A DNA stretch of 64,000 nucleotides, taken from contig NZ_JAZIFY010000001.1 in assembly GCF_036634195.1 (NCBI RefSeq), forward strand, positions 4,226,501 to 4,290,500. The letters are read 5' to 3'. The position numbers and the translations under genes are program-made. A model generated the notes under the pieces. That model had not been told where the DNA came from, did no database searches, and saw nothing but the letters and a program-made list of their open reading frames with translations. The first letter of the stretch is position 1. Every line of letters begins with the position of its first letter. The stretch is from Streptomyces sp. P9-A4. GTDB taxonomy: Bacteria; Actinomycetota; Actinomycetes; Streptomycetales; Streptomycetaceae. Below, piece by piece: positions 4,311 through 24,648 of the stretch.

Positions 4311-5198
4311 TCATACGGGCATCCGGCCCATCAGCCCGCGCCTGAAGTCCTTTTCCGCCTGCCGGAGTTCCGCGGCCGTGTTCATCACGAACGGGCCGCT
4401 GCGGGCGACCGGTTCGCCGATCGGCTCGCCCGCCAGGACCAGTACCTCGGCCGCTTCGCCGGGCGCCTCGACGGTGAACCGTTCGCCGTCGCGGGCGAGG
4501 ACGGCGAGGTGCCCGTCGGGCAGGTGCTCGTCGGCGACCTCGGCCGCGCCCCGCATCACGTACACCATCGCGTTGTGCCCGGCGGGCACGGTGAACGCGG
4601 CGCTGCTCCCGGCCGCGAGCCGCCCATGGACGACGAGGACCGGCGTACGGGTCTCGAACGGCCCGGTCACCCCGTGGCTGCTGCCGGCCAGGACGGTGAG
4701 CGCGGCGCCGTCGGGGGTGGTGACGGTCGGTAGGTCGGCGGCCTCGGCGTTCTGGCTCTGCGGCGGGACGCCCTTGAGGCGGGCGGGCAGGTTCACCCAG
4801 ATCTGGAGCATGTGCTGATGCCCGCCCTCGGCGAGGAACTCCGGGGTGGGCAGGGCCTCGTGGACGATCCCGGACCCGGCGGTGAGCCACTGGACCCCGC
4901 CCGCGCGGACGACGGCGCGGTGGCCCCGGGAGTCGGCGTTCGCGATGTCGCCGTCGAGGACGTACTGGATCGTCTCGAAGCCTCGGTGCGGGTGTGGGGG
5001 AGCACCCTTCGCCTCACCGGGCCCGAGGTCGATCGGGCCGACTTGATCGACCATCAGGAAGGGCTCGAGGAAAGGGAGTTCGGCGGTCGGGAAGGGGCGG
5101 CGGACGGGGAATCCGGCGCCCTCGTGGGTGTGGAAGGGGCGGACGGTGCGGGCGACGGTCCGCTCGGCGGTGGCGGTGGCGGTGGCGGTGGTTGTCAT
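4311..5198 (-). CDS. Pirin family protein
   Basis: A 295-residue bicupin. The N-terminal cupin carries the metal ligands of pirins: the HPHRGFETIQYVLDG motif (two His), then HEALP and a Glu-His pair in EGGHQHMLQIWVNLP. The second cupin begins near residue 190 (PVLVVHGRLAAGSSAAFTVPAG). Pirins bind Fe(II) or Ni and several act as quercetinases or redox sensors. The ATG has no ribosome binding site and lies just downstream of a candidate promoter, so the mRNA may be leaderless. It is divergent from the metallo-hydrolase gene and shares operator motifs with tetR. Confidence 0.9.
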   Translation of the reverse strand: MTTTATATATAERTVARTVRPFHTHEGAGFPVRRPFPTAELPFLEPFLMVDQVGPIDLGPGEAKGAPPHPHRGFETIQYVLDGDIANADSRGHRAVVRAGGVQWLTAGSGIVHEALPTPEFLAEGGHQHMLQIWVNLPARLKGVPPQSQNAEAADLPTVTTPDGAALTVLAGSSHGVTGPFETRTPVLVVHGRLAAGSSAAFTVPAGHNAMVYVMRGAAEVADEHLPDGHLAVLARDGERFTVEAPGEAAEVLVLAGEPIGEPVARSGPFVMNTAAELRQAEKDFRRGLMGRMPV

Positions 5199-6877: not shown

Positions 6878-7612
6878 TCAGTCGATGTGGACGATCTGGA
6901 AGGCCTCCGCCATCCGGCCCGGCGGCAGGCCGCCGGCCATCGCGTGTTCCCCGAGCCAGGTGCGGAGCAGCCCCGCGAGGTCGTCGAAGTGAGCCGTCTG
7001 GGAGGTGTGGATGCGCAGGGCCTCGACCTTGCGGTCGAAGACCGTCGTGACGTCCACGTACTGGTTGGGGGTGGGGCCGGTCATCAGCCACAGTTCGTGG
7101 ACGGTCCAGGGCTCCAGGCCCTCGTCCTTGAGCAGTGCGGCGTGCGCGAAGGGGTTGCGGGCCTCGGGGTAGACCGCGCGCAGACAGGCGTCGCCGACGG
7201 CGCGGTGGTCGGGGTGGAGGTCCGCGACCCGCGCCCAGTTGATCTCGGGGGAGGGGATGATGGCCCGCTGCGGGCGGACCTCGCGGATGACCCGGCACAG
7301 GTCCCGGCGGAGTTCCACCGAGGCTTCGACGAAGCTGTCGGGGTAGCCGAGGAAGCGGACGTCCGCGACGCCGCTGAGCTTGGCCGAGTGGACCTGCTCG
7401 GCGCGGCGCAGATCCGCCATCGCCTGGCGGGGGAGCCGATCGTCGTAACCGCCGGCGCCGCCGTCCGTGACGATGCAGTACGTGACGCGGGTGCCGCGCT
7501 CGATCCACTGCATGACGGTGCCGCTGACGCAGAACTCGATGTCGTCGGGGTGTGCCGCCACCACCAGCAGGGATTCGGGCGCGGAACGTTCGGTCGTCGC
7601 GAAGTCCTCCAT
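6878..7612 (-). CDS. PIG-L (LmbE/MshB-like) deacetylase
   Basis: The metal site AHPDD (in VVAAHPDDIEF) and the downstream HPDHRAVGDA motif are diagnostic for zinc-dependent N-acetyl-sugar deacetylases such as MshB. YCIVTDGGAGGYDD also fits the family. The usual family length of about 240-300 residues is met. I place the start at the ATG giving MEDFATTERSAPESLL (244 aa). An ATG 26 codons upstream is possible but adds a Pro-rich non-conserved stretch. The gene is divergent from the asparagine-synthetase-like gene. With the MshA-like glycosyltransferase and tRNA-synthetase-like enzyme nearby, it probably deacetylates an N-acetylglucosaminyl intermediate (inference). Confidence 0.85.
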   Translation of the reverse strand: MEDFATTERSAPESLLVVAAHPDDIEFCVSGTVMQWIERGTRVTYCIVTDGGAGGYDDRLPRQAMADLRRAEQVHSAKLSGVADVRFLGYPDSFVEASVELRRDLCRVIREVRPQRAIIPSPEINWARVADLHPDHRAVGDACLRAVYPEARNPFAHAALLKDEGLEPWTVHELWLMTGPTPNQYVDVTTVFDRKVEALRIHTSQTAHFDDLAGLLRTWLGEHAMAGGLPPGRMAEAFQIVHID

Positions 7613-7688
7613 GGGGCCAGCCTGTTGGGGCGGCGGGGGCGTCGCAAGGCCACGTCGTGGCGTGAACTGGACATGGCACTTACGCGCC

Positions 7689-7712
7689 ATTCAAAAGCTT
7701 GGTAGATTCAAA
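7689..7712 (+). promoter_or_regulatory. Direct repeat and possible -10 upstream of the asnB-like gene
   Basis: ATTCAAA occurs at 7689-7695 and again at 7706-7712. TAGATT (7703-7708) could be a -10 element for the asparagine-synthetase-like gene, leaving a leader of about 50 bases. The direct repeat might bind an activator such as the LuxR-type regulators further on. Tentative. Confidence 0.3.
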
Positions 7713-7766
7713 TCATTGGGTGCGACCAGTGTGTTGACGAGGACAGTGACTACGGAGGCGACCGGC

Positions 7767-9572
7767 ATGTGCAGGATTCTCGGCTCCTTCGCCGCGGGGG
7801 CGGACCGCCCCGAGCCGGCCCAACTCGCGGCGGTCTCCGCCCGCCAGCGCCACGGCGGACCCGACGAGCACCATCTGCTCAGCGGGCCCGGCTGGTCCCT
7901 GGGCTGCGACCGGCTCGCCGTGACCGACCCCTGCGGCGGACAGCAGCCCTACCGGCTGCCCCACCTCCCCGGCATCCTCGCCGTGCTCAACGGCGAGATC
8001 TACAACCACGCCGAACTACGCAGGACCCTCGCCGCGCGCGGCCACCGGTTCCCCGACCGCTGCGACGGCACCGTGCTCCCCGCGCTCTACGCCGAGTACG
8101 GGCCCGCCTTCGCCGAGCACCTCGACGGCATGTTCGCCGTCGCCGTCCTCGACCTGCGCCCCGGCAGCGCCCAACTCGTCCTCGCCGTCGACGACATGGG
8201 CATGAAGCCGGTCCATCTGCACCACGACCCCTACGACGGCTCCACCCGCTTCGCCTCCGAGATCCCCGCCCTCCTCGCCTTCGAAGGGGTACGGATCTCC
8301 CCGCGCGAGGACTCCCTCGACACCGTCCTCGCCACCCGCACCTCCTTCTCCACGCACACCGCGCTCGACGGCGTCAGCGTCCTGCCGCCCGGCGGCACCG
8401 CCCTCGTACGGCCGGGCGCCGCCCCCGTCGTACGCCGCCGGGGCGCCCACCGGGCCACCCCCGTCGGCGACACCCAGGACGTGCTGCGCCACGAGGTGCG
8501 CCGGCTCGCCCAGGCCGAGGTGCCCGTCTGCGCCATCACCAGCGGCGGCCTCGACTCCGGCCTCGTCACCGCGCTCGCCGCCGAACACGCCCGCGAGACC
8601 GACGCGCCGCCGCTGCACACCTTCCACCTCACCTACCGGGGCCGCTGGCCCGAGTCCGAGGCCGCGTACGCCCGTTCCGTCGCCCGCCGCACCCGGACCG
8701 TGCACCACGAGGTCGCCGTCGACCCCGACGAACTCGGCTCCCTCCTCACCCGCACCGTCCGCCACCTCGGCCAGCCCAACGCCGACCCCATCACCCTCTC
8801 CACCTACGCCCTCTTCCGCGCCGTCCGCGAGAACGGCTTCACCGTCGCCCTCACCGGCGACGGCGCCGACGAACTCTTCGGCGGCTACGACCGGATGCGC
8901 GACGCGCTCGCCGCCCCCGCCGGGGCCGACTGGGCCGGCGCCTACGCCGACGCCCTGTCCGCCGCGCCCCGGATGCTCCGCGAGCACCTCTACACCGCCA
9001 ACTACCGGGCGCACATCGCCGACCAGGGCTCCGCCGCCGACCGCATCGAGCAGGAACTCCGCTCGGCCGAGGCCGTCGGCGAGGACCGGCTCACCGCGAT
9101 GACCGCGTTCGAGACCCGCTGGCGGCTCCCCGCGTACCACCTGCGGCGCGTGGACCACCTCTCGATGGCCTGGGCCGTCGAGGCGCGCATGCCGTTCTGC
9201 CAGCCGTCGGTCGTGACACACGCCCGCGCGCTGCCGACGGCCGCCCGTACGGGCAAGCGCGCGCTGTACGAGGCCGGGGCGGAGCTCCTGCCCTCGGCGG
9301 TCCTGCGCCGGCCCAAGCAGCCCTTCACGCTGCCCGTCCCGGCCATGCTCGCGCCCGGCAGCCCGCTGCTCGAGACCGTCCGCGAACTGCTCTCCCCGGC
9401 CCGTCTCGTCCTCGGCGGGAAGGTCCGCGCCGACCGGGTGCAGAAACTCCTCGCCCGCCAGCTCGAACGCCCCTCGCGCCACGACGCCCAGGCCCTGTGG
9501 GCCCTCGCCGTCCACGAACTGTGGACGGAGGTCGTCCAGGGCATGAGGATCCCGGTCGGCTGTGCGGCCTGA
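7767..9572 (+). CDS. Asparagine synthetase-like (glutamine-hydrolysing) amidotransferase
   Basis: A 601-residue protein. The ATG is followed directly by Cys2, the nucleophile of class II glutamine amidotransferases; GGAGG lies upstream. The N-terminal domain has RHGGPDEH and LNGEIYNHAEL. The C-terminal synthetase domain has the PP-loop SGGLDSG (259-265) and GDGADELFGGYDR, so both half-reactions look intact. AsnB homologues outside primary metabolism amidate or cyclise carboxylates in specialised metabolites. Its stop overlaps the next gene's start by 11 bases, so it is coupled to the PrpF-like isomerase. The neighbourhood suggests a biosynthetic rather than housekeeping role. Confidence 0.85.
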   Translation: MCRILGSFAAGADRPEPAQLAAVSARQRHGGPDEHHLLSGPGWSLGCDRLAVTDPCGGQQPYRLPHLPGILAVLNGEIYNHAELRRTLAARGHRFPDRCDGTVLPALYAEYGPAFAEHLDGMFAVAVLDLRPGSAQLVLAVDDMGMKPVHLHHDPYDGSTRFASEIPALLAFEGVRISPREDSLDTVLATRTSFSTHTALDGVSVLPPGGTALVRPGAAPVVRRRGAHRATPVGDTQDVLRHEVRRLAQAEVPVCAITSGGLDSGLVTALAAEHARETDAPPLHTFHLTYRGRWPESEAAYARSVARRTRTVHHEVAVDPDELGSLLTRTVRHLGQPNADPITLSTYALFRAVRENGFTVALTGDGADELFGGYDRMRDALAAPAGADWAGAYADALSAAPRMLREHLYTANYRAHIADQGSAADRIEQELRSAEAVGEDRLTAMTAFETRWRLPAYHLRRVDHLSMAWAVEARMPFCQPSVVTHARALPTAARTGKRALYEAGAELLPSAVLRRPKQPFTLPVPAMLAPGSPLLETVRELLSPARLVLGGKVRADRVQKLLARQLERPSRHDAQALWALAVHELWTEVVQGMRIPVGCAA

Positions 9573-10608
9573 CCCGCCGGGGCCCGGGGGTGCGGTCGTC
9601 CCCGTCACCGTCGTCCGCGCCGACGACGCCCCCGGCCCCACCCTCGTCGTACGCCTCGACCGGCTCCCGGCCGGGGCGCTGGCCCTGGCCGAGGAACTGG
9701 CGCAACTGCGCCGGGCCCTCGCCCGTACGCCGTACGCCGGACTCAACAAGATCGCGCTGTACGGGAGTTCGGCGCGGCCCGGCGTCGACCTCGACCACCG
9801 CTTCGTCCAGGCGCTCCCCGGCGGCGGCTTCGACTTCCGGGCCGGCTGCGGACACTCCCTCCTCGCCTGCGTGGTCGCGACCGCCCGCCGGGGCCCGGTC
9901 ACGGTCCACGCGGTCACCACCGGCGACACGGTGCTGTGCGAACCCGAGCCCGACGCGGGCGGCCCCCTCGGCGCCGAGCCCGAAGCGGACGACCCGCACG
10001 GGACCGCCCCGTACAGCGGCGCACCGTTGCACGGGACCGCCCCGTACCGCGGCGCACCGCACGCGCGCGCGTCCTCGCGGCCCCGGCCCGTCGCGTACAC
10101 CCTCGGCTTCCTCACCCCGCCGACCGCCCCCGGCGCCCTCCCCACCGGCCGGCCCGTCGACCTCCTCGGCGGCATCCCCGCCTCCCTCGTGCGGTACGGC
10201 AACCCGTACGTCTTCGTCGACACCCGCCATCTCGGGGCCCTGAGCGACGACCGTCTCCGCGACCGGCTGCTCCTCCTCCGTGCCGAGGCCGCCCGCCTCC
10301 TCGGCCACCCGCCCCACTCCGCCCTCCCCAAGATCGCCGCCTTCACCGCAGGACCCGACGGGCGGCTCTCCGTCCGCGCCCTCACCGTCGGCGGCTGGCA
10401 CCCCCGGCTCGCCCTCACCGGGGCCGCCGCCCTCGCCGCCGCCGGCGCGCTCGACGGCACCGTCGTGCCGCCCGTCCACGGCGAGGTCCGCACCCCCGGC
10501 GGCCCGGTCACCGTCTCCACCGCGCCCGACCGCGTCCGCGTCCACCACAAGCGCGCCCGTGTCCTGGAAAGGCTCGACGTGCCGTGGCGTATCCACGCAA
10601 CGGCGTGA
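9562..10608 (+). CDS. PrpF-like isomerase (diaminopimelate-epimerase fold)
   Basis: A 348-residue protein starting with a GTG inside the asnB-like gene. The segment NKIALYGSSARPGVDLDHRF resembles the S-K-x-x-x-x-x-S-S-R-P motif of PrpF (2-methylaconitate isomerase), and AGCGHSLLA occupies the place of the family's NCGN catalytic loop, keeping the Cys. A second domain carries GGIPASLVRYGNPYVFVDTRHLG, again PrpF-like. A Pro/His/Ala-rich linker of about 35 residues sits near residue 155. PrpF proteins move double bonds in unsaturated di- and tricarboxylates. A similar isomerisation of a carboxylate later amidated by the upstream enzyme is possible. Family call fairly sure, reaction unknown. Confidence 0.65.
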   Translation: MRPDPPGPGGAVVPVTVVRADDAPGPTLVVRLDRLPAGALALAEELAQLRRALARTPYAGLNKIALYGSSARPGVDLDHRFVQALPGGGFDFRAGCGHSLLACVVATARRGPVTVHAVTTGDTVLCEPEPDAGGPLGAEPEADDPHGTAPYSGAPLHGTAPYRGAPHARASSRPRPVAYTLGFLTPPTAPGALPTGRPVDLLGGIPASLVRYGNPYVFVDTRHLGALSDDRLRDRLLLLRAEAARLLGHPPHSALPKIAAFTAGPDGRLSVRALTVGGWHPRLALTGAAALAAAGALDGTVVPPVHGEVRTPGGPVTVSTAPDRVRVHHKRARVLERLDVPWRIHATA

Positions 10609-10699
10609 ACGCGCACCCCTCTCACCAGGCCCGCGGTCCGTTTCCTCTGCCACGCTGAAATGGACCGGCCATCGGTATCCGTGGGGAGAGCAGACACAC

Positions 10700-11446
10700 A
10701 TGAAATTCGAGAATCTGCGTGTCGTCGTGACCGGGGCGTCCCGCTATTTCGGTCGCGCGCTCGCCGTCGGATTCGCCCATCTCGGCGCCGAGGTGTACGT
10801 GTCGGCGCGGACCGTCGAGGCCGCCGAACGCACCCGTACCGAGGTCATGGGATCGGCCCGTGACCGTATCCACGCCTTCGGCTGCGACCTCAGCAGGCCC
10901 GCCGAGATCCGGGAGTTCGCCGCCCGCGTCGGTGAACACACCGACCGCGTCGACCTGTTGGTCAACAACGGCGCCCGCTGGCTCGACGGCATGGACCTGG
11001 AGGCGGCCAGCGACGCCGAGATCGTGGAGACGATCGAGTCGACGGCCGGCGGCACCGTCCTCATGGTGAAGCACTTCCTGCCGCTGCTGCGCGGCTCGCT
11101 GCGGCCCGACATCGTGAACATGGTCGCCGTCCGCGACGCCGAGGGCGCCTCCGCGGCGACCGCGGGCGTCGCCCACGAGGCCTTCTGGGCGGCGAAGAGC
11201 GCCCAGGCCGGATTCGCCGACATCCTGTCGCGCCGGCTCCGGCCCTCCGGGGTCCGGGTGTTCTCCCTCTTCCCGCCCGACTTCTCGACCTCCGACCCGC
11301 GCTTCGCGGAATGGGACGGCTCGAATCCGGACGGAATAGCACCCGACGAGAAACTGACGACGCAGGCCCTTTTCGAATGCATCGTCTACGCCGTCGAGCA
11401 GCCGCGCGACTGCTTCATCCGCTCGTTCCACTTCGAGCCCCGCTGA
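10700..11446 (+). CDS. Short-chain dehydrogenase-like protein lacking the catalytic Tyr
   Basis: A 248-residue Rossmann protein. The nucleotide loop is TGASRYFGRALA (one glycine of TGxxxGxG replaced by Tyr-Phe-Gly spacing), and NNGA is present. The usual Ser-Tyr-x3-Lys site is altered: where YxxxK is expected the sequence reads FWAAK, and the Ser region reads NMVAVRDAEG. The Lys is kept but Tyr is Phe and Ser is absent. GGGGAG precedes the ATG. It may bind NAD(P) without classical dehydrogenase chemistry. It lies between the isomerase and the MetRS-like gene on the same strand. Confidence 0.75.
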   Translation: MKFENLRVVVTGASRYFGRALAVGFAHLGAEVYVSARTVEAAERTRTEVMGSARDRIHAFGCDLSRPAEIREFAARVGEHTDRVDLLVNNGARWLDGMDLEAASDAEIVETIESTAGGTVLMVKHFLPLLRGSLRPDIVNMVAVRDAEGASAATAGVAHEAFWAAKSAQAGFADILSRRLRPSGVRVFSLFPPDFSTSDPRFAEWDGSNPDGIAPDEKLTTQALFECIVYAVEQPRDCFIRSFHFEPR

Positions 11447-11549
11447 CCGTCCCGCCCGTCCACTTCGACCCGCTGACCGCCCTGCGCCGACCGCGCTCCG
11501 CCGACCGCGACCGCTGAAGCCCACCGCACCACAGCGTCAAGGAGGTCCC

Positions 11550-13115
11550 ATGAGCACCCCCGTCTGGATCACCGCGACCCCTCCCGCCACCCACGGCGAG
11601 CTGCACATCGGCCACCTCGCGGGGCCGTACGTCGCCGCCGACGTCCTCACCCGCTATCTGCGCGCGGAGGGCGAGGCCGTCCGGTTCACCACCGGCACCG
11701 CCGACCACGCCAGCTCCGTCGAGGTCAGGGCGCTGCGCCACAACCGCAAGCCCGAGGAGGTCGCGGAGGGCTACCGTGCCGCGATCACCGCCGACTGGCT
11801 GCGGTCGGGCGTGGAATTCGACCACATCGTGCGCCCGCGCCGCGACAAGGGTTACGGACGCTGGGTGCAGGACCTCTTCGGGCGGCTCTTCGCGCAGGGC
11901 GTGATCGCCCCGCGCACCCGTCTGCTGCCGTACTGCGAGCCCTGCGACCGCTGGCTGTACGGGGCGCACGCCACCGGCACCTGCCCGCACTGCGGCGCGG
12001 TCAGCGACGGCGGGATGTGCCACGAGTGCGCCCGCCCCAACGACGGCGGCGACCTGATCGGGGCGCGCTGCGCGCTCTGCGACACCCCGGCGGTGGCCCG
12101 CCGCTGCCGCCGGCTCTACGTCCCCCTGGAGCCCTTCCGGGAGACGCTGGCCGACTACTGGGCGACGGCGGGCCTGCCGCCGCGCCTCGCGGCCCTGTGC
12201 GAGTCGCTCGTCGAGGACGGCCTGCCGGACATCGCGGTCGGCCACCCCGCCGAGTGGGGTCTTCCGGTGCCGGTCGAGGGCTTCCCCGACCACCGGATCG
12301 ACGGCTGCTTCGAGGCGGCGGCGATGCACCTCTTCGGCTACGACGTGACGGGGCCGCTGCCCCGCCGCGCCATCCACTTCTGCGGCTTCGGGCACGCCTT
12401 CTGCCACGCGGTGCTGCTGCCGGTGCTGCTGCTCGCGCAGGACATCAAGCTGCCGCAGGACTTCAACGTCAACGAGTCGTACGTCATCGAGGAGGGCGTC
12501 CAGGAGGGCAACGTCTGGGCGCTGGACCTGCTCACCGAGTACGGCTCCGACACCCTGCGCCGCCATGTCCTCCAGGCCCGCCCGCTGGGCCGCCGGACGG
12601 TCTTCCACCGGGAGCGGCTCGCGACCGCCCGGCGCGAGCTGGACGAGAACTGGAACAGCTGGCTGTCCCGGCTGTTCGCCGCCGTACGGGAGGAGTGCGG
12701 CGGGCTCGCCCCGCAGGCGCTGCCCGGCGGCACCGGCTGGGAGATCCTGGAGCGGCGGCTGCACCGGGGCGTGGACGATCTGCGCGAGGCCTACGGCCCC
12801 GACGCCTTCGATCCGCGCCGCGCGGTGGCCGTCCTCGACGAGATGGTCCGCTCGGCGGCCGACTTCGGTCATGTCAACGCCCACGAGCGGTGCCGGCCCA
12901 GCACCTCCTGCCGTCATCTCCCGGCGCTGGCCGCGCAGTTGGCGGTGGCCTCGGCGCTGTCGGCGTGGGCGCGGCCGGTGATGCCGGAGGGCGCGGACCG
13001 GCTCGCGGCGGCGCTCCAGGCGGCGCCGGGGCGGGCGGTCGACTGGCACGCGCTGACGGCGCCGCTGCCGGGGACACGGCTCGCACCGCCGTCGGGCCCG
13101 GTCTTCGGCTTCTGA
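11550..13115 (+). CDS. Methionyl-tRNA synthetase-like protein without KMSKS
   Basis: A 521-residue class I synthetase paralogue with a perfect AAGGAGGT before the ATG. HIGH is intact (residues 19-22, in GELHIGHLAG), so ATP and amino-acid binding are likely. The Zn-knuckle insertion of MetRS is present with four CxxC pairs (Cys 129/132, 145/148, 157/160, 174/177). The KMSKS loop is replaced by NESYVIEEG (308-316), and no tRNA-anticodon domain like that of a full MetRS is obvious, though the C-terminal helical part remains. Such paralogues activate an amino acid and pass it to a small amine (MshC, hydrazine synthetases). A role as an aminoacyl ligase in this cluster is inferred. Confidence 0.85.
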   Translation: MSTPVWITATPPATHGELHIGHLAGPYVAADVLTRYLRAEGEAVRFTTGTADHASSVEVRALRHNRKPEEVAEGYRAAITADWLRSGVEFDHIVRPRRDKGYGRWVQDLFGRLFAQGVIAPRTRLLPYCEPCDRWLYGAHATGTCPHCGAVSDGGMCHECARPNDGGDLIGARCALCDTPAVARRCRRLYVPLEPFRETLADYWATAGLPPRLAALCESLVEDGLPDIAVGHPAEWGLPVPVEGFPDHRIDGCFEAAAMHLFGYDVTGPLPRRAIHFCGFGHAFCHAVLLPVLLLAQDIKLPQDFNVNESYVIEEGVQEGNVWALDLLTEYGSDTLRRHVLQARPLGRRTVFHRERLATARRELDENWNSWLSRLFAAVREECGGLAPQALPGGTGWEILERRLHRGVDDLREAYGPDAFDPRRAVAVLDEMVRSAADFGHVNAHERCRPSTSCRHLPALAAQLAVASALSAWARPVMPEGADRLAAALQAAPGRAVDWHALTAPLPGTRLAPPSGPVFGF

Positions 13116-13239
13116 CGGCTCGCTCCGGCTCTCCACTACTAAGCAACTAAGTACATCCGTACGGCAGTGTCTCCGTACAGCAGCATCTCCGTACAGCAGT
13201 GTCCGACTCCCTCCCTGTCGCGTGACCGTGCGCGCGCGA

Positions 13240-13300
13240 GCGACGCGCAGGGACACGTGGCCCCCACTCCTCAGGAGCCCCACGTGTCCCTGCGCGTCGC
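13240..13300 (+). promoter_or_regulatory. Perfect 21-bp hairpin enclosing RBS and start codon of the glycosyltransferase gene
   Basis: Bases 13240-13260 are the exact reverse complement of 13280-13300, with a 19-base loop. The GTG start (13284-13286) lies in the 3' arm and the AGGAG ribosome binding site lies in the loop, where CTCC (13267-13270) can pair with GGAG (13274-13277). In RNA this would hide both signals, so translation should need a helper, a riboregulator or an alternative start. The 3' arm also encodes the first residues of the enzyme. Confidence 0.8.
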
Positions 13301-14606
13301 CATGCTCAGCGTCCACACCTCCCCGCTCCACCAGCCCGGGACGGGGGACGCCGGCGGGATGAACGTCTACATGGTCGAGCTCTCCCGCGCCCTGGCCGAA
13401 CAGGGCGTGGAAGTCGACCTGTTCACCCGCTGCCGGGGCGAGGGCGCGCCCCCGCTCGTCGAACTCGCCCCCGGCGTACGGGTCCGGCATCTGCACGCGG
13501 GGCCGCGCGAGGCGCTGCCCAAGGAGGCCATGCCCGACCTGGTGGTGCCGTTCTCGCTCGCCCTGCTCAAGGAGGAGCGGCGCTACGACCTGGTCCACTC
13601 GCACTACTGGCTCTCCGGGCAGGCGGGCAGGATCGCCTCGGTCGGCTGGCGCATCCCGCTGGTGCACACCGCCCACACCCTGGCCCGGGTGAAGAACGGT
13701 TCCCTCGCCGCCGGTGACACCCCCGAGCCGGAGCTACGGGTCAGGGGCGAGCACCAGGTGGTGTCCGCCGCCGACCGGCTGATCGCCAACACGGCCGACG
13801 AGGCGGAGGCGCTGCGCACCCTGTACGGGGCGGAAGGGCCGCGAACCGAGGTCGTCCGCCCCGGGGTCGACCTGCGGACCTTTCATCCAGCGGACGGCAG
13901 GGCCGCCGCGCGGGCCCGGCTCGGGCTGCCCGCCGGGGCGTTCGTGCCGCTCTACGCCGGCCGCATACAGCCCCTCAAGGGCCCGGACGTGCTCGTACGG
14001 GCGATCGCCGAACTGCTGAGGGAGGCGCCGGAGTTGCGCCACCGGCTGCTGGTGCCGGTGGTCGGCGGCCACTCGGGCGCGACCCGTGAGGGGACGGCCT
14101 GGCAGCTCGCCGCGGAGCTGGGGGTGACCGATGTGCTGCGGTCCTTCCCTCCCGTACGGCAGGAGTTGCTGGCCGACTGGTACCGGGCGGCGGACGTCCT
14201 GGTGGTGCCCTCGCGCAGCGAGTCGTTCGGGCTGGTGGCGCTGGAGGCGCAGGCCTGCGGGACGCCGGTGCTCGCGGCGGCGGTGGGCGGGCTGCCCACG
14301 GCGGTGTGGGACGGGGTGACGGGGATGCTGGTGCGCGGTCACGACCCGGTGGAGTACGCGCGGCGGCTGCGGTGGCTCGCGGAGCACCCGGAGGTGGTGG
14401 GGACGATGGGGGAGGCGGCGGTCCGTCATGCGCGCGGGATGAGCTGGCGCGCTTCCGCCGCGCGGACGGTCGAGGTGTACCGGGGGGCGCTCGCGGAGAC
14501 GCGCCGGCCGGCCGTGCTCGGGGTGGTGGGGCAGGGGCGGCGGCACGCCCCTGCCCCGACGGCCCCTCTCTCCTGGAGGAACGAGAAGGCCGTAGCACAA
14601 GTCTAG
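13284..14606 (+). CDS. MshA-like family 4 glycosyltransferase
   Basis: A 440-residue GT-B enzyme closely patterned on MshA: it begins VSLRVAMLSVHTSPL, then QPGTGDAGGMNVYMVELS, DLVHSHYWLSGQ, VHTAHTLARVKN, the donor-site VYAGRIQPLKGPDVL (here LYAGRIQPLKGPDVL) and the E-x7-E region SRSESFGLVALEAQACGTPV. MshA joins GlcNAc to inositol-1-phosphate. This is most likely a second copy with a changed acceptor, since it sits in a special cluster with a PIG-L deacetylase. The GTG at 13284 has AGGAG six bases upstream; an in-frame GTG at 13167 is possible and would place the hairpin inside the coding region. Confidence 0.85.
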   Translation: MSLRVAMLSVHTSPLHQPGTGDAGGMNVYMVELSRALAEQGVEVDLFTRCRGEGAPPLVELAPGVRVRHLHAGPREALPKEAMPDLVVPFSLALLKEERRYDLVHSHYWLSGQAGRIASVGWRIPLVHTAHTLARVKNGSLAAGDTPEPELRVRGEHQVVSAADRLIANTADEAEALRTLYGAEGPRTEVVRPGVDLRTFHPADGRAAARARLGLPAGAFVPLYAGRIQPLKGPDVLVRAIAELLREAPELRHRLLVPVVGGHSGATREGTAWQLAAELGVTDVLRSFPPVRQELLADWYRAADVLVVPSRSESFGLVALEAQACGTPVLAAAVGGLPTAVWDGVTGMLVRGHDPVEYARRLRWLAEHPEVVGTMGEAAVRHARGMSWRASAARTVEVYRGALAETRRPAVLGVVGQGRRHAPAPTAPLSWRNEKAVAQV

Positions 14607-14823: not shown

Positions 14824-15072
14824 ATGTCTGCTGAGCGTGCCACGGGGATGCGTAAGATCGTCCGTCAGTTCGCGGTCGCCGCGGCTGCCTGTCTCTCCGT
14901 CGCGGGCGGTGCGGCGCTCGTGACGGCCCCGGAAACCGCGTCGGCCGCTTCCCAGCATGTGGTGGCCGAAGGAACGGACGGCACCGCGACCGTGACCCCC
15001 ACCCCCACGCCTTCCCCGTCCAGCGGGAACGAGTGGGACCGTGTCTCCCCGGCGCCGATTCCTGCCAATTGA
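14824..15072 (+). CDS. Small secreted peptide precursor, 82 aa
   Basis: A strong GGAGGA precedes the ATG. The N-terminus is basic (RATGMRKIVRQ), then a hydrophobic core (FAVAAAACLSVAGGAALV) and a signal peptidase site after TASA. The mature part would be about 40 residues: a charged start (HVVAEGTDG), a Thr-Pro stretch and the tail GNEWDRVSPAPIPAN. It lies between the biosynthetic genes and two LuxR-type regulators and is convergent with the first. No homologue with known function is recognised. It could be an extracellular signal sensed by the regulators or a peptide product or substrate of the cluster. Both are inference. Confidence 0.7.
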   Translation: MSAERATGMRKIVRQFAVAAAACLSVAGGAALVTAPETASAASQHVVAEGTDGTATVTPTPTPSPSSGNEWDRVSPAPIPAN

Positions 15073-15220: not shown

Positions 15221-16279
15221 TCAGTCCACCCAGCCCAGCCGGTAGGCGCGCACCCCGGCCTCGAAACGGCTCGTCGCCCCCATGTCCTGCATGAGTTCGG
15301 AGAGCATCCGGCTCACCGTCCGCAGCGACACCCCGAGTCCCCGCGCGATCTTCTCGTCCTTCATCCCGGAGGCGAGCATGCTCAGCGCCGCCCGCTGCTG
15401 CTCGGAGAGACCGTCACCGCCCTGCTCGGGCGCCGAGGCGTCCCCGTACGGCGAGGCGGTGTGCCAGCAGTGCTCGTACAGCGCGAGATACGAGCGGACC
15501 AGGGCCGGGCCCCGGGCCAGCACCGCGCCCGCCGCCGGCTTCGCCGGATCCACCGGGACCACCGCGAACTGCGCGTCCGCGATGATCAGCGGCATCGGCA
15601 CGTCCGTCGTGATCCGCACCTCGACCCCCGCCTCGACCCGGCGCCGCAGATGCATCTGCACCTCGGGCGAGGCACAGACCCGCTCGCTGTACATGGCGCG
15701 GACGCGCACCCCGTTCTCGATCTGCCGCCGGTCCCGGCTCAGCACCCGCTCACCCACCTCGCGGTTCAGCGAGGTCGCGTGCATCGACGCCAGACCGTGC
15801 TGGATGACGTCCGTGATGTCCTCAAGTACCTGCTGGATCCGCCGGTAGTCGCTGAGCATCTCCACATCGGCGTCCGAACGCGTCAGCGATCCGGCCCGCA
15901 GATAGGACCCCGCCAGCGTCTCCAGGGTGCTGTACGCCCGGTCCGCCTCGTCCAGATGGACCCGCAGCTGCTCCCGCTCGCGGTGCAGCAGCCGCAGCAT
16001 GGCGATCTCCGGGTCGATCACGGCGACCGTGTCGCCGTCCTGCTGCCCCGCGGCGCCCTCGAACTCCCCCCGGGCCCCGTGCTGGGCGGGATTCGTCGGC
16101 ACGATCAGCCCGAGGGACGTCAGTTCGTCCCTACATCGCTCGTACTCCCGCGGCGCGAGCCGCAGTTCGTCCCCCACCTCACGCAGCCGGGACACCCCCC
16201 GCCTGCGTAACTCCTGATAGAGGTCCACCACAGGATCGGGTGACCGCCGCGCTCCCGTACCGCCGCCGCTGGTGATCAT
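15221..16279 (-). CDS. LuxR-type regulator with TrmB-like N-terminus (copy A)
   Basis: 352 residues in three parts. Residues 15-60 look like a TrmB-type winged helix (VVDLYQELRRRGVSRLREVGDELRLAPREYERCRDEL). The middle has the phospholipase-D-like or sugar-sensor pattern seen in TrmB regulators (RAMYSERVCASPEVQMHLRR, VEVRITTDVPMPLIIAD). The C-terminus is a LuxR/GerE helix-turn-helix (GLSEQQRAALSMLASGMKDEKIARGLGVSLRTVSRMLSEL). Copy B next door has the same order and shares long identical stretches, so the pair arose by duplication. Regulators of this kind usually sit beside the pathway they control. Target and ligand unknown. Confidence 0.85.
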   Translation of the reverse strand: MITSGGGTGARRSPDPVVDLYQELRRRGVSRLREVGDELRLAPREYERCRDELTSLGLIVPTNPAQHGARGEFEGAAGQQDGDTVAVIDPEIAMLRLLHREREQLRVHLDEADRAYSTLETLAGSYLRAGSLTRSDADVEMLSDYRRIQQVLEDITDVIQHGLASMHATSLNREVGERVLSRDRRQIENGVRVRAMYSERVCASPEVQMHLRRRVEAGVEVRITTDVPMPLIIADAQFAVVPVDPAKPAAGAVLARGPALVRSYLALYEHCWHTASPYGDASAPEQGGDGLSEQQRAALSMLASGMKDEKIARGLGVSLRTVSRMLSELMQDMGATSRFEAGVRAYRLGWVD

Positions 16280-16408: not shown

Positions 16409-17440
16409 TCACAGCCCGCGATCGTTACCCTCGCTGTCCAGCAGTCCCAGCCGCGCCGCCTTCACGCCCGCCTCGAAGCGGCTCGCCGCCCCCAACTCCT
16501 GCATCACCTCGGACAGAAGACGGCTGACCGTCCGCAGCGAGACCCCGAGATTACGGGCGATCTGCTCGTCCTTGATGCCGGAGGCGAGCATCAGCAGCGC
16601 CGTCCGCTGCTGCTCCGACAGCCCGTCGCAGCCCTTCTCCGCCGGATCCTCCTGGCCGTACGGGGCCGCCGCCGTCCAGCAGTACTCGTACAGCGCCACA
16701 TAGGACCGGACCAGGCCGGGACCGCGGGCGAGGATCGACGGGGACGAGGGCTCGTACGGGTCGGTCGGGAGCATCGCGAAGTTCTCGTCGGCCAGCACCA
16801 TGTTCATCGGCACCACCGAGGACAGCCGGATCTCCACGCCCACCGCGGCGCGCTCCTCCAGGTGCTGGGCCATCTCCGGCACCGAGGCGGCCCGGCGGCT
16901 GTACATGGCGCGGACGCGCACGCCCCGCTCGGCCCAGCGCCGGTCCCGGTCCAGCTCACCGCCCATCTCCTCGCGGCGGACGGAGCCGGTGTGCATGAAG
17001 TGCGCGGCCGTCCGGACGGATTCCGCCAGCTCCGCGAGACTCTTCAGGACCCGGTCGGGAGCGTCGACGATCTCGACCTCCACCTCGGCCCGGGGCGTGG
17101 CTCCGGCCTGCAGGAACGGCCCGGCGAGGGCTTCGAGAGCGGTGTGCGTACGGCTGGTCGCGGCAAGGCGTTCCTGGAGCCGGTCGCGCTCCCGGCGCAG
17201 CAGCCGCAGCAGGGCGACATCGGGATCGACGACGGCGGGCGCCCCGGATCCGGCCGGCTCCCCGGCCTCGGTCAGTCCCAGTGCGGCGAGTTCGCCCCGG
17301 CAGCGCTCCCGCTCCTCGGCGGAAAGCTCCAAACGGTCCGCGACCTCGTCGAACGTGGCATCCGGGTGGATGCGGAGTTCCTGGTAGACGGCGAGAGCCT
17401 GATCGCCACCCACACGCGGAACGGCGGTGTTTCTGGACAC
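16409..17440 (-). CDS. LuxR-type regulator with TrmB-like N-terminus (copy B)
   Basis: A 343-residue paralogue of the preceding regulator with the same architecture: winged helix (QALAVYQELRIHPDATFDEVADRLELS), middle sensor (RAMYSRRAASVPEMAQHLEERAAVG) and C-terminal LuxR domain (GLSEQQRTALLMLASGIKDEQIARNLGVSLRTVSRLLSEV). The DNA-recognition helices of A and B are nearly the same (LGVSLRTVSR), so they may bind the same sites, while the middle domains differ more and may sense different signals. The genes are 129 bases apart on the minus strand and could be co-transcribed, B first. Confidence 0.85.
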   Translation of the reverse strand: MSRNTAVPRVGGDQALAVYQELRIHPDATFDEVADRLELSAEERERCRGELAALGLTEAGEPAGSGAPAVVDPDVALLRLLRRERDRLQERLAATSRTHTALEALAGPFLQAGATPRAEVEVEIVDAPDRVLKSLAELAESVRTAAHFMHTGSVRREEMGGELDRDRRWAERGVRVRAMYSRRAASVPEMAQHLEERAAVGVEIRLSSVVPMNMVLADENFAMLPTDPYEPSSPSILARGPGLVRSYVALYEYCWTAAAPYGQEDPAEKGCDGLSEQQRTALLMLASGIKDEQIARNLGVSLRTVSRLLSEVMQELGAASRFEAGVKAARLGLLDSEGNDRGL

Positions 17441-18087: not shown

Positions 18088-18981
18088 TCAGTCGTCCGCC
18101 CGGCACACGAGCAGGACGGACTCCGTCCGCTCGTCGATCCGGTGCCGCCGCCGCCCCTCGATGTGCAGCCCCGCCGAGTGCAGCTCGGCCGCGAGCCGCT
18201 CGGGGTCCACGATCCACTTGTCGGTGGTGAGCACCACCCGCTCCGTGGAGAGCTTGCCGGTCCTGGCCGCGTAGTACGTGATCCGCTCGCTCATCGACGG
18301 CAGGTCGAAGACCTGCCGGGCCACCACCCACTCGTCGATCCCGTCGAACCGCGGCACCTGGAACGCCCAGGTCCGCTGCGGCTCCGCGATCAGCCCCGGC
18401 AGCTGGTGGGCCGTGTAGTCCAGGGCCAGCGCCCCGCCCGCCTCCAGATGCCCGGCGACCTCCCGCAGCAGCCCGGGCCGCCGCGCCGGGGGTACGGCGG
18501 TGACCATGGCGCCCGCGAGCAGCGCGAGCCGGTAACTGCCGTCGAGCCGCAGCTCGGTGAGGTCCGCCCGACGGGTCATGACCAGGCCGGCCACCTGCGG
18601 GCCGATCCGGCGGGCCCAGCCTTCGAGGCGCTCAAGGGCCGAGGCGTCCCGGTCCACGGCTTCCACGGCGAAGCCGTGCCGGGCGAACGGGACGGCGAGC
18701 CGCCCGGCGCCGGAGCCGAGGTCCAGGACGGGTCCGCCGGTGGAGCGGGCGAGGCTGAGATACCGGACGATGTCCGCGCTGTGCGGGCCGAGCAGGGCGT
18801 CGTGCAGCCACACGGACGCCTCGTCGGCGGGGGAGACGGACTCGAGCCCCGGCAGGGTGTCCGAGGTGACCCGGACGCCGGCCCCGGGGGCGGGCTCGCG
18901 CTCCCGGCCGTATCGGGACGGCAGGACCGGCGTGAGCGCTGCGGGCACGACGGGCAGGGAAGTGCCGCTCGGTGTGTGCAT
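18088..18981 (-). CDS. Class I SAM-dependent methyltransferase
   Basis: 297 residues from an ATG preceded by GGAGG; an ATG 26 codons earlier exists but lacks a site. Motif I is VLDLGSGAGRLAVPFARHGF, motif II VEAVDRDASALERL, and the post-motif region is RLALLAGAMVTAVPPARRPGLLREVAGHLEAGGALALD. The C-terminal third (RITYYAARTGKLSTERVVLTTDKWIVDPERLAAEL) is a beta-sheet lid as in small-molecule methyltransferases. Substrate unknown. It is set apart from the LuxR-type regulators and may not belong to the cluster. Confidence 0.8.
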   Translation of the reverse strand: MHTPSGTSLPVVPAALTPVLPSRYGREREPAPGAGVRVTSDTLPGLESVSPADEASVWLHDALLGPHSADIVRYLSLARSTGGPVLDLGSGAGRLAVPFARHGFAVEAVDRDASALERLEGWARRIGPQVAGLVMTRRADLTELRLDGSYRLALLAGAMVTAVPPARRPGLLREVAGHLEAGGALALDYTAHQLPGLIAEPQRTWAFQVPRFDGIDEWVVARQVFDLPSMSERITYYAARTGKLSTERVVLTTDKWIVDPERLAAELHSAGLHIEGRRRHRIDERTESVLLVCRADD

Positions 18982-19153
18982 CGCTCCTCCAGGGGCTCGC
19001 TCGGTCCATGCCGTCCGGACGAGGTACCCGTGCCGCCGGGACCGCGCCGCTGGACCCATCCTGACCTGGGGAGGGAGCCCCGATCCACCGGATCGGGCTG
19101 CGTGAACACGCGATGGCGTGGATCTGCCACGCCTCCGGCTCGGAGCGCGCGGC

Positions 19154-19633
19154 TCAGAGTGCGCGGCTCCAGCGCCTGGGGGAGAGGGCCGCGAAACCCA
19201 GGTGCCGGTAGAACGGAAGCGCCGGGTCGGACTCCGCGGGGAGCTCCACGCGCTGGTCGCGGGCGCCGAAGTCGCGCATCCGCTGGGTGGCCGCCGCCAT
19301 CAGGGCCGTACCCACGCCCCGGCGCCGGGAGCCGTCCGCCACGGCCAGGGCGTACACCTCGCCCTCGCCCGGTACGGGGACCCCGCCGGCCGCCGCCCCG
19401 ACGATCGTGCCCTCCGTGTCGGTCGCCACGAGCCAGCCCAGCCAGCCGGGCGCGCCCCCCGGAATTTCAATTTCCGCTCGTATGCGGGGGAGCGCGCACT
19501 GTGCGGAGATCAGCCGTCGCATCGGGATTTCGTCAAGGATTCCCGCGTAGCTGCTCCGAATGGCGTCGGCAAGCAGCCTGGATATCGTCGTCGCATCGCC
19601 GGCCGCGGCCGTTCGAACGCCAGCCAGCTGCAT
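19154..19633 (-). CDS. GNAT-family N-acetyltransferase
   Basis: The acetyl-CoA loop VADGSRRRGVGTALMAAATQRM and the terminal FYRHLGFAALSPRRW are typical GNAT motifs A and B. I use the ATG giving MQLAGVRTAAAGD (159 aa). A start 16 codons upstream is open but would add residues not usual for the fold. Acceptor substrate unknown. There is a clear drop in GC around its 5' end (19450-19700), which may reflect the promoter. Confidence 0.75.
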   Translation of the reverse strand: MQLAGVRTAAAGDATTISRLLADAIRSSYAGILDEIPMRRLISAQCALPRIRAEIEIPGGAPGWLGWLVATDTEGTIVGAAAGGVPVPGEGEVYALAVADGSRRRGVGTALMAAATQRMRDFGARDQRVELPAESDPALPFYRHLGFAALSPRRWSRAL

Positions 19634-19751
19634 TGGTTTTGTACCCTTCGACGTGCCGAGCGTGAGCCCCAACATACCCACAATAGCGGGGAATTAAGTT
19701 GTCCGTGACCGATGCGAAATCTACGAATTCGCTTAGTAAATAGGGCAGTTA

Positions 19752-20660
19752 TCAGGGGAACGAACAGCAGGCGACGATCAAGGGTGCCATCGCCAGTGCC
19801 GCCGAAGCGACGGTCAACAGGCCGAGCAGAACGGGATGTCCGGCGCTGTGCGGAGTGAGGATCCGCCGCATCCGCACCGCCGCCGAAGGACCTCCCGCGG
19901 CAAATGCCGACCTGGGCGCCCGCCCCGAGGCCAGCGCGTACAGAGCGGTGGCCAGCGCGTCCCGCGTACATCGGCGCAATGCCCGGTCGTCCGCCGCCAT
20001 TTCGAGCAGCAGCGGTACGGCGGGACCGCCGTACCGGGCGAGCGGAAGGCGCGCGAAGACCGCCGCGAACGCCTCCGCCGCCGCGACCAGCAGGTGGTGG
20101 CGCCCGGCGATGTGCGCCCGCTCGTGCGCGAGGGCCGCCGCCAGCTGGGCCGGGGTGAGGGCGCGCAGCGCGCCCGAGGAGACCACGACCCGGCGCGTGC
20201 GGCCGGGCAGGCAGTAGACGGCGGGGCGTTCGTCGTCGAGGACGGTGGCGCGCAGGGCGGGGTCGTACCGTCCGACGATCCGCAGCACCCCGGCGTGCCG
20301 CAGCCGCGCCCGGCGGGCCCTGGCGAGGCGGCGGGCGAACGCGGCGGCGGGCAGCGACAGGACGAGCAGGGAGAGCGAAAAAGCGAACCGCTCACGCCCG
20401 TCGAGGTTCATGACCTGAGCGAGCGTGGGCGGTTCGAGGGTGAAGAGCATGTCGGCCAGCCGGTGACTGCTCCCGGCCGAAAGGACCAGCTGGGCGGGGA
20501 TCAGGGCGGTCGCCGCCGCGAAGACGGCCCCGCACGCGGCCCAGACGGTCAGGGCGAGCCTGGGTGCCTGCTGGGCCCAGCGGGACCGGGCCACCAGCCA
20601 GGGGACCAGGCCGCCGGTGAGCAGGACGAGCCCGAGCGGGACGAGGATGTGGTGGTTCAC
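19752..20660 (-). CDS. M56 family (BlaR1-like) membrane metallopeptidase
   Basis: 302 residues with hydrophobic segments at both ends and the zinc motif HERAH (ALAHERAHIAGRHH) in the middle, followed by EMAADDRALRR, the usual third-ligand region. M56 proteins detect a signal through the membrane and cleave or inactivate a BlaI-type repressor. Its ATG overlaps the stop of the upstream BlaI gene by four bases, the standard arrangement. There is no penicillin-binding sensor domain, so the signal is not a beta-lactam. Proximity to copper genes may be chance. Confidence 0.9.
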   Translation of the reverse strand: MNHHILVPLGLVLLTGGLVPWLVARSRWAQQAPRLALTVWAACGAVFAAATALIPAQLVLSAGSSHRLADMLFTLEPPTLAQVMNLDGRERFAFSLSLLVLSLPAAAFARRLARARRARLRHAGVLRIVGRYDPALRATVLDDERPAVYCLPGRTRRVVVSSGALRALTPAQLAAALAHERAHIAGRHHLLVAAAEAFAAVFARLPLARYGGPAVPLLLEMAADDRALRRCTRDALATALYALASGRAPRSAFAAGGPSAAVRMRRILTPHSAGHPVLLGLLTVASAALAMAPLIVACCSFP

Positions 20661-21079
20661 GCGCCGCCCCCGTCCCCTGGGTGTGGATGGTGGAGCGGGT
20701 GCTGGAGCGGTGGCTGATCACCGCGGGCCGCGCGGAGGGCCGCGTCGAGGGCGTCCACGTCCTCGTCCGAGATGACCTCGACGAAGCGGAGCAGGGCCGC
20801 CGGGCGGTCCTGGCTGTCGCCGAGGGCGTCCCGCATCAGTCCGGCCGTGTACTCCTCGCGGCTGCGGACGGGCTCGTACAGCCAGGCCCGGCCGGCCTTC
20901 TCCCGGCGGAGCCAGCCCTTGCGGTGCAGGATGTCCGCGACGGTCATGACGGTCGTGTACGCGACCCGTCGTTCCCGGTTGATGTCGTCGACGATCTCGC
21001 GGACCGTGGCGGGCCGCTGCCAGGCCCACAGTCGGTCCATGATCTCGGCCTCCAGCTCTCCCAGCCGGCGCACGTGCAT
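20657..21079 (-). CDS. BlaI/MecI/CopY-family repressor
   Basis: 140 residues. The winged helix reads LGELEAEIMDRLWAWQRPATVREIVDDINRERRVAYTTVMTVADILHRKGWLRREKAGRAWLYEPV, typical of the family. A dimerisation helix follows, then a His-rich tail (QPPLQHPLHHPHPG) that is unusual and could bind metal. It forms an operon with the M56 peptidase. Its promoter region (21080-21156) is shared with a divergent small gene that has a CsoR-type operator. Confidence 0.9.
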   Translation of the reverse strand: MHVRRLGELEAEIMDRLWAWQRPATVREIVDDINRERRVAYTTVMTVADILHRKGWLRREKAGRAWLYEPVRSREEYTAGLMRDALGDSQDRPAALLRFVEVISDEDVDALDAALRAARGDQPPLQHPLHHPHPGDGGGA

Positions 21080-21130
21080 CCCCTCCCCCTACGGGCGGCT
21101 CATCGTACGGGCCGCTTCCCCCGCTCAGGT

Positions 21131-21147
21131 ATACCCCCCAGGGGTAC
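21131..21147. promoter_or_regulatory. CsoR-type operator
   Basis: ATACCCCCCAGGGGTAC matches the copper-repressor site (G/ATACCCC-GGGGTAT) seen twice more at 24575 and 24657. It lies ten bases before the small Cys protein ATG and within reach of the blaI promoter. Confidence 0.75.
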
Positions 21148-21156
21148 AGTGGCAGG

Positions 21157-21336
21157 ATGTCGACCCTCATGAAGACCCTTCTGGCGGCCCCTACGAAGAA
21201 CCGCCCCTGCGCGAAGGTCTGCGACTCCGGTCTCCCCGGATCGGTGGAGCTGGTGCTCCTCCGGCAGCTGCTCGGCCTCTGTCTCCGGCTGAGTCTCACG
21301 CTGTCCGCCGACTGCCCTTCACGCAAGAGCGGTTGA
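21157..21336 (+). CDS. Small Cys-containing protein under a CsoR operator, 59 aa
   Basis: Begins MSTLMKTLLAAPTKN, with Cys at 18, 22, 42 and 53 and a hydrophobic Leu-rich middle (SVELVLLRQLLGLCLRLSLTL). The CsoR-type operator ten bases upstream means transcription would start almost at the ATG. It is followed by a good terminator. No family recognised. It could be a small copper-binding or membrane-associated peptide in the copper response, or a leader. The gene call rests on its position between operator and terminator. Confidence 0.45.
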   Translation: MSTLMKTLLAAPTKNRPCAKVCDSGLPGSVELVLLRQLLGLCLRLSLTLSADCPSRKSG

Positions 21337-21372
21337 TCTCCCCCGGGGGGCCTCTCGCGGGTCCTCCCGCCG

Positions 21373-21410
21373 GTCCTGTTCAGGACCCCGTCAGGGGCCT
21401 GAACAGGGAC
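21373..21410. terminator. Hairpin terminator between small Cys gene and csoR
   Basis: GTCCTGTTCAGG (21373-21384) pairs with CCTGAACAGGGAC (21398-21410) with one bulge, and the inner CCCC and GGGG extend the stem to a GTCA loop. It separates two convergent genes. Confidence 0.7.
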
Positions 21411-21423
21411 CATGTCACGCGCC

Positions 21424-21705
21424 CTATGTCCGGATCAGCCGGGCGATGGCCTTCGAGGCCTCGCCCACCTTCACCTTCGCCTGGTCCCCGCCCTGGGCGA
21501 TGGCCTCCGTGACGCAGCAGCTGAGGTGCTCGTCCAGCAGGGCCACCGCGCAGGACTGGAGGGCCGCGTTGATCGCGGAGACCTGGGTGAGGACGTCGAT
21601 GCAGTAGACGTCCTCGTCGACCATCCGCTGCACCCCCCTGACCTGACCCTCGATGCGGCGCAGGCGTCTGATGATGTCTTCCTTGTGCTGTCCGTAACCG
21701 GCCAC
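21424..21705 (-). CDS. csoR: Copper-sensing repressor CsoR
   Basis: 93 residues of the all-helical DUF156 fold. The Cu(I) ligands Cys35 (VYCIDVL), His60 and Cys64 (DEHLSCC) are at the spacing of CsoR, and QVRGVQRMVDEDVYC is the family signature. GTG start with GAGGAG upstream. It follows copA on the same strand and probably binds the three ATACCC-GGGTAT palindromes in this region, releasing when Cu(I) binds. Confidence 0.92.
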   Translation of the reverse strand: MAGYGQHKEDIIRRLRRIEGQVRGVQRMVDEDVYCIDVLTQVSAINAALQSCAVALLDEHLSCCVTEAIAQGGDQAKVKVGEASKAIARLIRT

Positions 21706-21751
21706 GACGGGCTCCTCGGGGAGGGGAGGGGGAGGGAGGGAAGGACGTTCG

Positions 21752-24019: not shown

Positions 24020-24260
24020 AGCTCCTGCTCCTCTTTTTTCAGGGCTCGGTTCGCCTCTGGGGCGCTGGTGCCGGGCTCGCGGCCCCGACCGTGCTCGCCT
24101 CCCTCGTTCCTCGGGAGGCTCCGCGCGCTCGGTTCCGTTCCCCCGGCGCGCCCCTTCGGCTCACTCGCCGGTCCCGGTGGCGGAAGCCCTCGTATGCGGG
24201 ATGTCGGGGGCCGGGGCCCGGGCGTGGTGGGCGGGCCCCGGCGGCCGAGGGGGCTGTCGG

Positions 24261-24545: not shown

Positions 24546-24574
24546 GGCTTCCTCCTCGGTCGATTCCCGGTCCG

Positions 24575-24627
24575 ATACCCTCGGGGGGTATTCGGTTGTG
24601 AGTCCATGTATACCCCCCTCCCGTATC
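24575..24627 (-). promoter_or_regulatory. CsoR-type operator upstream of copZ, with a second half-site
   Basis: ATACCCTCGGGGGGTAT (24575-24591) is a palindrome of the CsoR type. TATACCCCCCTCCC (24608-24621) looks like a weaker, half-conserved second site. Together they would control copZ-copA-csoR. Confidence 0.7.
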
Positions 24628-24648
24628 CGACGCAAGCCGTTCCCCGAC

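Follow-up and report, generated by a model that had tools for sequence, protein, structure and literature searches.

A second mycothiol-type gene set in Streptomyces, with a ligase from the hydrazine synthetase branch, may build a conjugate of glucosaminyl-inositol

Gene content of the locus

The locus described here lies in a 64-kb stretch of the 7.5-Mb genome of Streptomyces sp. P9-A4 (C1:4226501-4290500; hereafter the window, meaning this whole stretch), whose first 20 kb have a G+C content of 71-75%. A sequence-only reading of this DNA had proposed a mycothiol-like gene set at positions 6878..14606, and all six genes that it named were found there. The first, on the minus strand and divergent from the other five, encodes a PIG-L (LmbE-type) deacetylase (6878..7612; PF02585, 94.7 bits, scored on a longer open reading frame) with intact AHPDD and HPDH motifs. 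On the plus strand, an AsnB-type glutamine-dependent amidotransferase (7767..9572) retains Cys2 and matches PF00733 (229.9 bits), a GATase domain and TIGR01536 (296.7 bits, cut-off 267.1). There follow a PrpF-like isomerase-fold protein (9562..10608; PF04303, 28.4 bits, cut-off 27) and a short-chain dehydrogenase/reductase (SDR; 10700..11446; PF00106, 89.9 bits), in which Phe replaces the catalytic Tyr (FWAAK) and which had rightly been called degenerate. The last two plus-strand genes of the six encode a ligase resembling methionyl-tRNA synthetase (MetRS), with an intact HIGH motif, a lost KMSKS-type loop and all eight zinc-ribbon Cys residues (11550..13115), and an MshA-like glycosyltransferase (13284..14606). 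The latter exceeds the MshA profile cut-off (TIGR03449, 537.9 bits against 462.5), in agreement with its initial assignment, and is an extra copy in addition to the housekeeping mshA.

The gene unit reaches past position 14606, to about 19681, because two further minus-strand genes, for an S-adenosylmethionine methyltransferase (18088..19059) and a GNAT acetyltransferase (19154..19681), occur in exactly the same 15 genomes as the PIG-L gene (see below). The nearest named kin of the methyltransferase are peptide amine methyltransferases; the GNAT protein is a possible counterpart of the MshD step. No description of PIG-L, MshA-like and MetRS-like genes together was found in the open-licence literature (titles and abstract openings, among the matches listed), consistent with the initial remark that no pathway with this set had been described.

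Separation from the mycothiol pathway

Elsewhere in the same genome, housekeeping mshA (659.1 bits), mshB (407.1 bits), mshC (677.3 bits; C1:1311649) and mshD (383.6 bits) all score above curated cut-offs, and a canonical metG is also present (495.6 bits). Since these separate mshA-D genes pass the cut-offs, the cluster is a second, dedicated set and not the mycothiol pathway of the genome. The possibility, raised with the original proposal, that the strain has no mshA or mshB other than the genes for this glycosyltransferase and deacetylase is thereby excluded.

Searching 28 genomes with the MshA-like protein of the window (E up to 1e-80) revealed one mshA copy in 13 of 13 cluster-free genomes and two copies in 14 of 15 cluster-bearing ones. 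In a tree of 39 rows, two of which (L125 and L127) duplicate the cluster copies of loci L072 and L083, the cluster copies form one clade (support 95/85) apart from the housekeeping copies. The cluster proteins of L072 and L083 likewise exceed the MshA cut-off. Residues K78, Y110, T134 and R154 of Corynebacterium glutamicum MshA presumably make up the inositol-phosphate site; the four matching positions are kept in 17 of 17 MshA-like proteins, and the cluster enzyme appears to retain its inositol-phosphate substrate residues.

Ancestry and active site of the ligase

As originally claimed, the ligase is of the MetRS type and not of the CysRS type to which MshC belongs, and the true mshC lies elsewhere. 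It shares the fold, the HIGH motif and the double zinc ribbon of canonical MetRS but differs from it in its altered amino-acid pocket and KMSKS motif and in its score against the metG equivalog profile, which is far under the cut-off (174.6 bits against 336.35). In a phylogenetic tree the protein nests among MetRS paralogues that form N-N bonds in partnership with a lysine N-hydroxylase and a cupin (cupin/MetRS, PyrN and Spb40; the "paralogous MtRS" of Aravind et al. 2010). The best structural match of its model is PyrN (9l8v, 32% identity; Foldseek, VIA); among the matches listed by Foldseek and VIA all are MetRS or PyrN, a result that by itself excludes nothing. Together, tree and structure match place the origin of the ligase in the MetRS branch of the hydrazine synthetases. 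Thus, the MetRS type first proposed stands, whereas direct descent from MetRS does not.

Unlike the hydrazine synthetases, members of the ligase clade are accompanied by PIG-L in nearly all cases, and by a duplicated MshA in most, in place of the cupin and N-hydroxylase, and the Streptomyces half of the clade has lost the KMSKS-type motif. The 30 genome loci closest by MetRS-like protein (29 under the name Streptomyces, and L023 under that of Microtetraspora glauca) contain no relative of two cupin queries, of a lysine N6-hydroxylase query or of a DAO query; the cupin queries also found no match in eight fetched cluster loci. A further MetRS-like gene of the same genome, 37-39% identical, adjoins a cupin gene and a DAO oxidoreductase gene (L086, C1:5332000-5351500) and is likely to mark an N-N bond cluster in this strain.

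An alignment of the window protein with 52 of 120 listed relatives (53 sequences) separated three groups. Twenty-nine proteins, that of the window included, lack the K-x-S-T motif; nine of Kitasatospora type keep it and have an altered pocket; the remaining 15 are of another kind, mostly with a conserved pocket. In the tree, the motif-lost Streptomyces half comprises 16 rows with support of 100/100. The window protein has no Lys or Arg in the stretch bounded by N308 and R337, and residues 315-320, the lost loop, are the least certain stretch of the structure model. By contrast, G16, L18, H19 and G21 of the HIGH region and the eight zinc Cys residues are invariant in all 53 sequences. In the motif-less group the GFDN motif has changed from Asp to Gly in 26 of 29 proteins and from Asn to His (His282) in 29 of 29, the Asn being kept in 15 of 15 members of the third group. 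The invariant His282 may be regarded as a candidate helper in donor activation.

Ratios of nonsynonymous to synonymous substitution rates (dN/dS), obtained for four pairs, were 0.09-0.23 for the ligase gene, indicating purifying selection. Because this selection persists despite the lost loop, the ligase appears to be functional, though not through the standard site alone. The dN/dS values also rule out a decaying pseudogene. Plain aminoacylation, the ligase step suggested by the sequence-only reading, cannot be assumed because the half of the clade to which the window protein belongs has lost the KMSKS-type lysine. The loss of the Asp expected to contact the alpha-amine (A51 in the window protein) was considered as proof of a donor other than an amino acid; this argument was dropped because PyrN has Val at that position and still accepts L-Glu.

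Conservation and co-occurrence

Among the 30 loci, PIG-L is present in 26, AsnB in 25, the PrpF-like gene in 25, SDR in 26 and the MshA-like gene in 28, while the first LuxR gene, the methyltransferase and GNAT are each present in 28. Contig ends truncate L010, L022 and L032 on at least one side, the contigs of L010 and L032 being shorter than 4 kb and that of L022 starting 2 kb upstream of the MetRS-like gene. In L032 AsnB is followed directly by the MetRS-like gene, so that the PrpF-like and SDR genes are missing. L021 carries the PrpF-like gene as a fragment only, and the MshA-like frames of L038 are broken. Locus L018 lacks PIG-L through SDR, a gap that suggests faulty assembly because part of the MetRS-like gene is repeated, with 100% identity, just upstream.

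Co-occurrence was assessed in 36 genomes of our choosing, taken without correction for relatedness, of which 15 have PIG-L within about 6 kb of the MetRS-like gene and 21 do not. With E limits of 1e-40 for PIG-L, 1e-15 for the methyltransferase and 1e-10 for GNAT, each of the three was found in the same 15 cluster genomes and in none of the 21 others. Both Streptomyces and Kitasatospora (the latter assignment being inferred for some of the sampled genomes) include cluster-bearing and cluster-free members. GNAT lies at most about 10 kb from the ligase gene in 14 of the 15; in the remaining one, the draft genome G149, it is on a separate contig. Over 394 evenly drawn Streptomycetaceae genomes, a MetRS-like relative (E up to 1e-60) was found in 38, many being just 32-39% identical.

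These results define a core of PIG-L and the MetRS-like ligase, nearly always with the MshA-like enzyme. The set is kept across Streptomyces and Kitasatospora, so that the neighbourhood passed the conservation check proposed for it at the outset. Two loci, L071 and L082, have a MetRS-like gene of the same clade and a LuxR regulator without PIG-L or an mshA-like gene; that of L071 is near genes for an AMP-binding ligase and a TetR regulator, and that of L082 adjoins two large open frames without a Pfam match.

The AsnB, PrpF-like and SDR genes look like an optional module, because four loci from which all three are truly absent (L031 and L033) or absent (L072 and L075) keep PIG-L and the MetRS-like gene. 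Only AsnB remains of the three in L087. Their proposed part as builders of an acyl or amide moiety is qualified accordingly: the genes are present in the window but seem to be dispensable elsewhere. The nearest solved sequence to AsnB is 7ylz, a "hydroxyamidotransferase". The PrpF-like gene evolves fastest of the six (dN/dS 0.37-0.48); the value for SDR is 0.03-0.11. In seven aligned SDR relatives, too, Phe takes the place of the catalytic Tyr. In two cupin-linked clusters of the hydrazine synthetase kind (L079 and L080), SDR relatives are 60% and 52% identical and AsnB relatives 32% identical; because such relatives sit there, part of the module may have arrived with the ligase.

A possible pathway and its alternatives

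We put at roughly 0.5 the probability that the cluster of Streptomyces and Kitasatospora builds a mycothiol-like pseudodisaccharide conjugate on glucosaminyl-inositol. The likeness to the mycothiol system (MshA-D) lies in the succession of N-acetylglucosamine transfer to inositol phosphate, deacetylation, a class I synthetase-like ligase and a GNAT enzyme, with a glycosyltransferase that is MshA by cut-off. The differences lie in a ligase of the MetRS/PyrN type and in the added AsnB, PrpF-like, SDR and methyltransferase genes. Acceptor, donor, product and order of steps are those that we infer. The MshA-like enzyme would form N-acetylglucosaminyl-inositol phosphate, a general phosphatase would strip the phosphate and PIG-L would deacetylate the product to glucosaminyl-inositol. 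The MetRS-like ligase would then add an acyl or aminoacyl group to the sugar amine, doing the job of MshC with another donor, and the methyltransferase and GNAT would cap the conjugate. AsnB, the PrpF-like protein and SDR would provide optional tailoring, for example amidation of a side-chain carboxylate.

A more specific version of this proposal is put forward tentatively, with less than even confidence. It holds that the product is a second mycothiol-type, cysteine-free metabolite on glucosaminyl-inositol, that the ligase was recruited from N-N bond enzymes after loss of the cupin and N-hydroxylase, that Streptomyces then lost the KMSKS lysine, and that an altered mechanism lets a class I synthetase fold couple an acid with a sugar amine. 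If so, the mycothiol scaffold would be a platform for other metabolites, and MetRS paralogues for which a strict association with a cupin and an N-hydroxylase has been reported would have a second chemistry. A single evolutionary switch would have turned an ester-forming enzyme into a sugar-amide ligase, with the Kitasatospora enzymes that keep a KMSKS-type loop as living intermediates open to assay, and named Streptomyces strains, such as S. lavendulae CCM 3239 (L033) and S. gardneri NBRC 12865 (L034), would hold a tractable cryptic cluster.

Several observations weigh against a mycothiol-like conjugate, and the deacetylase step is the weakest part of the analogy. The PIG-L protein reaches only 29.6 bits against MshB (TIGR03445, cut-off 224.35), so that its description as MshB-like fails, and 34.1 bits against the Mca profile (cut-off 277.15); GNAT similarly falls short of MshD (TIGR03448, 24.9 bits, cut-off 163.1). 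PIG-L matches occur in 129 of 394 genomes of the class (100% identity in G000, 93% in G150 and 46-60% in the other 127), and none of the 20 fetched PIG-L loci outside the family (L165-L184) contains another cluster gene, one weak CopA match apart. Two genomes (G337 and G253) have a MetRS-like protein without PIG-L, a second mshA, the methyltransferase or GNAT, and G199 has PIG-L and the MetRS-like gene with a single partial mshA match and no second mshA. Finally, the KMSKS-type motif is absent from 29 of the 53 ligases, that of the window among them, and the K458A variant of PyrN is reported to have negligible activity (PMC8664883). The equivalence of K458 was derived by counting along the alignment, the lysine of KFSTG being residue 336 of 546 in the PyrN construct and 458 of 668.

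Outside Streptomycetaceae, PIG-L relatives have a pcrA-type helicase gene nearby in 18 of 20 loci and a sucC-type gene in 11 of 20. These profile scores, together with the occurrence of relatives as lone genes, mostly beside pcrA, rule out an offshoot of MshB, and the protein is best viewed as a widespread actinobacterial PIG-L. Many Actinobacteria, even one with a genome of 1.2 Mb, carry a single copy of this relative; among the 36 Streptomycetaceae genomes it occurs only in the 15 with the cluster. Within the cluster the dN/dS of PIG-L over four pairs is 0.09-0.19. Its best profile is BshB2, under the cut-off (88.0 bits against 195.25), which recalls the bacillithiol system (BshA, BshB and BshC); unlike BshA, the cluster glycosyltransferase is MshA, scoring 75.1 bits against the BshA profile (cut-off 273.7).

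Of the alternatives, the one that fares best, though we consider it unlikely, is that the Streptomyces MetRS-like enzyme no longer adenylates and instead serves either as a partner protein or as an acyltransferase that takes a pre-activated donor, with another enzyme, for example AsnB, forming the acyl bond. The loss of the KMSKS-type motif throughout the well-supported Streptomyces half, the low-confidence stretch in its place and the Asp to Gly and Asn to His changes in GFDN would fit such an enzyme. Yet the HIGH-region and zinc residues are invariant, the gene is under purifying selection, and L033, where the motif is lost, has no AsnB.

It is less probable still that mycothiol itself is what the cluster supports, with the additional MshA boosting the supply of glucosaminyl-inositol and PIG-L being an amidase on mycothiol conjugates. 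Lincosamide pathways offer a reported precedent (PMC4351081, PMC5518657), the MshA substrate residues are intact, and the neighbour of PIG-L in L072 encodes a protein that has a mycothiol maleylpyruvate isomerase N-terminal domain and of which five other loci contain relatives. PIG-L is nevertheless far from Mca, the role of the MetRS-like ligase is left unexplained, and the cluster-free genomes manage with a single mshA.

We give little credence to a product that is still of the hydrazine type, or another amino-acid compound, with the sugar genes as mere decoration. The 2010 survey reportedly found a cupin and N-hydroxylase always accompanying these MetRS paralogues (PMC2922099), and the PyrN product is reported to require the cupin domain (PMC8664883). 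Such a product would agree with the ancestry of the ligase and with the SDR and AsnB relatives in L079 and L080, but no cluster locus tested matched the cupin and N-hydroxylase queries.

GT4/PIG-L pairs are also found in aminoglycoside and tunicamycin pathways, which lends some colour to the idea of an unrelated acyl sugar as the substrate of PIG-L and the ligase, with the mshA-like gene as a duplicate whose acceptor has changed; the MshA scores of the three cluster proteins and the four inositol-phosphate residues kept in all 17 make this quite improbable.

Downstream and flanking genes

Between the MshA-like gene and the first of two LuxR-type regulator genes lies a plus-strand gene for a small, exported-looking peptide (14824..15072), which is connected with the pathway by position alone. 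The peptide measures 41-110 residues among loci, with an N-terminal RQF..A..AC.AVAGGA pattern and a C-terminal W..P motif, the W motif occurring twice in L029, L070 and L083. It was found in 25 of 27 scanned loci (in the range L009-L037), and L033 has a short form. Possibly it is a signal for the two regulators, both of which have a GerE domain and are encoded on the minus strand (15221..16279 and 16409..17440). A role as the precursor of a ribosomally synthesized and post-translationally modified peptide acted on by AsnB was not adopted: the peptide looks exported, and the short form persists in L033, which is free of AsnB. Seven loci (L069, L070, L073-L075, L083 and L087) share a further gene next to the first luxR gene, of a family that Pfam identifies in L070 as Fur; it was not seen in the window. 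The methyltransferase scores 113.3 bits against a daptide-type profile, under the cut-off of 175, and gave weak structure-sequence matches to the glycopeptide protein PCZA361.24 and the cypemycin N-terminal methyltransferase.

After the cluster, at 19752-24785, come genes that we named by eye as an M56/BlaI pair, CsoR, CopA and CopZ. Relatives of these genes trail the cluster in most Streptomyces loci, and CopA is also seen in several Kitasatospora loci. A link to copper was not adopted: 13 of the 21 genomes without the cluster also have a relative of the M56-type protein, for the most part 31-37% identical, and the evidence is thin either way. Upstream, at 4311-5198, a pirin-like gene (cupin-fold, by eye) is matched in 3 of the 30 loci.

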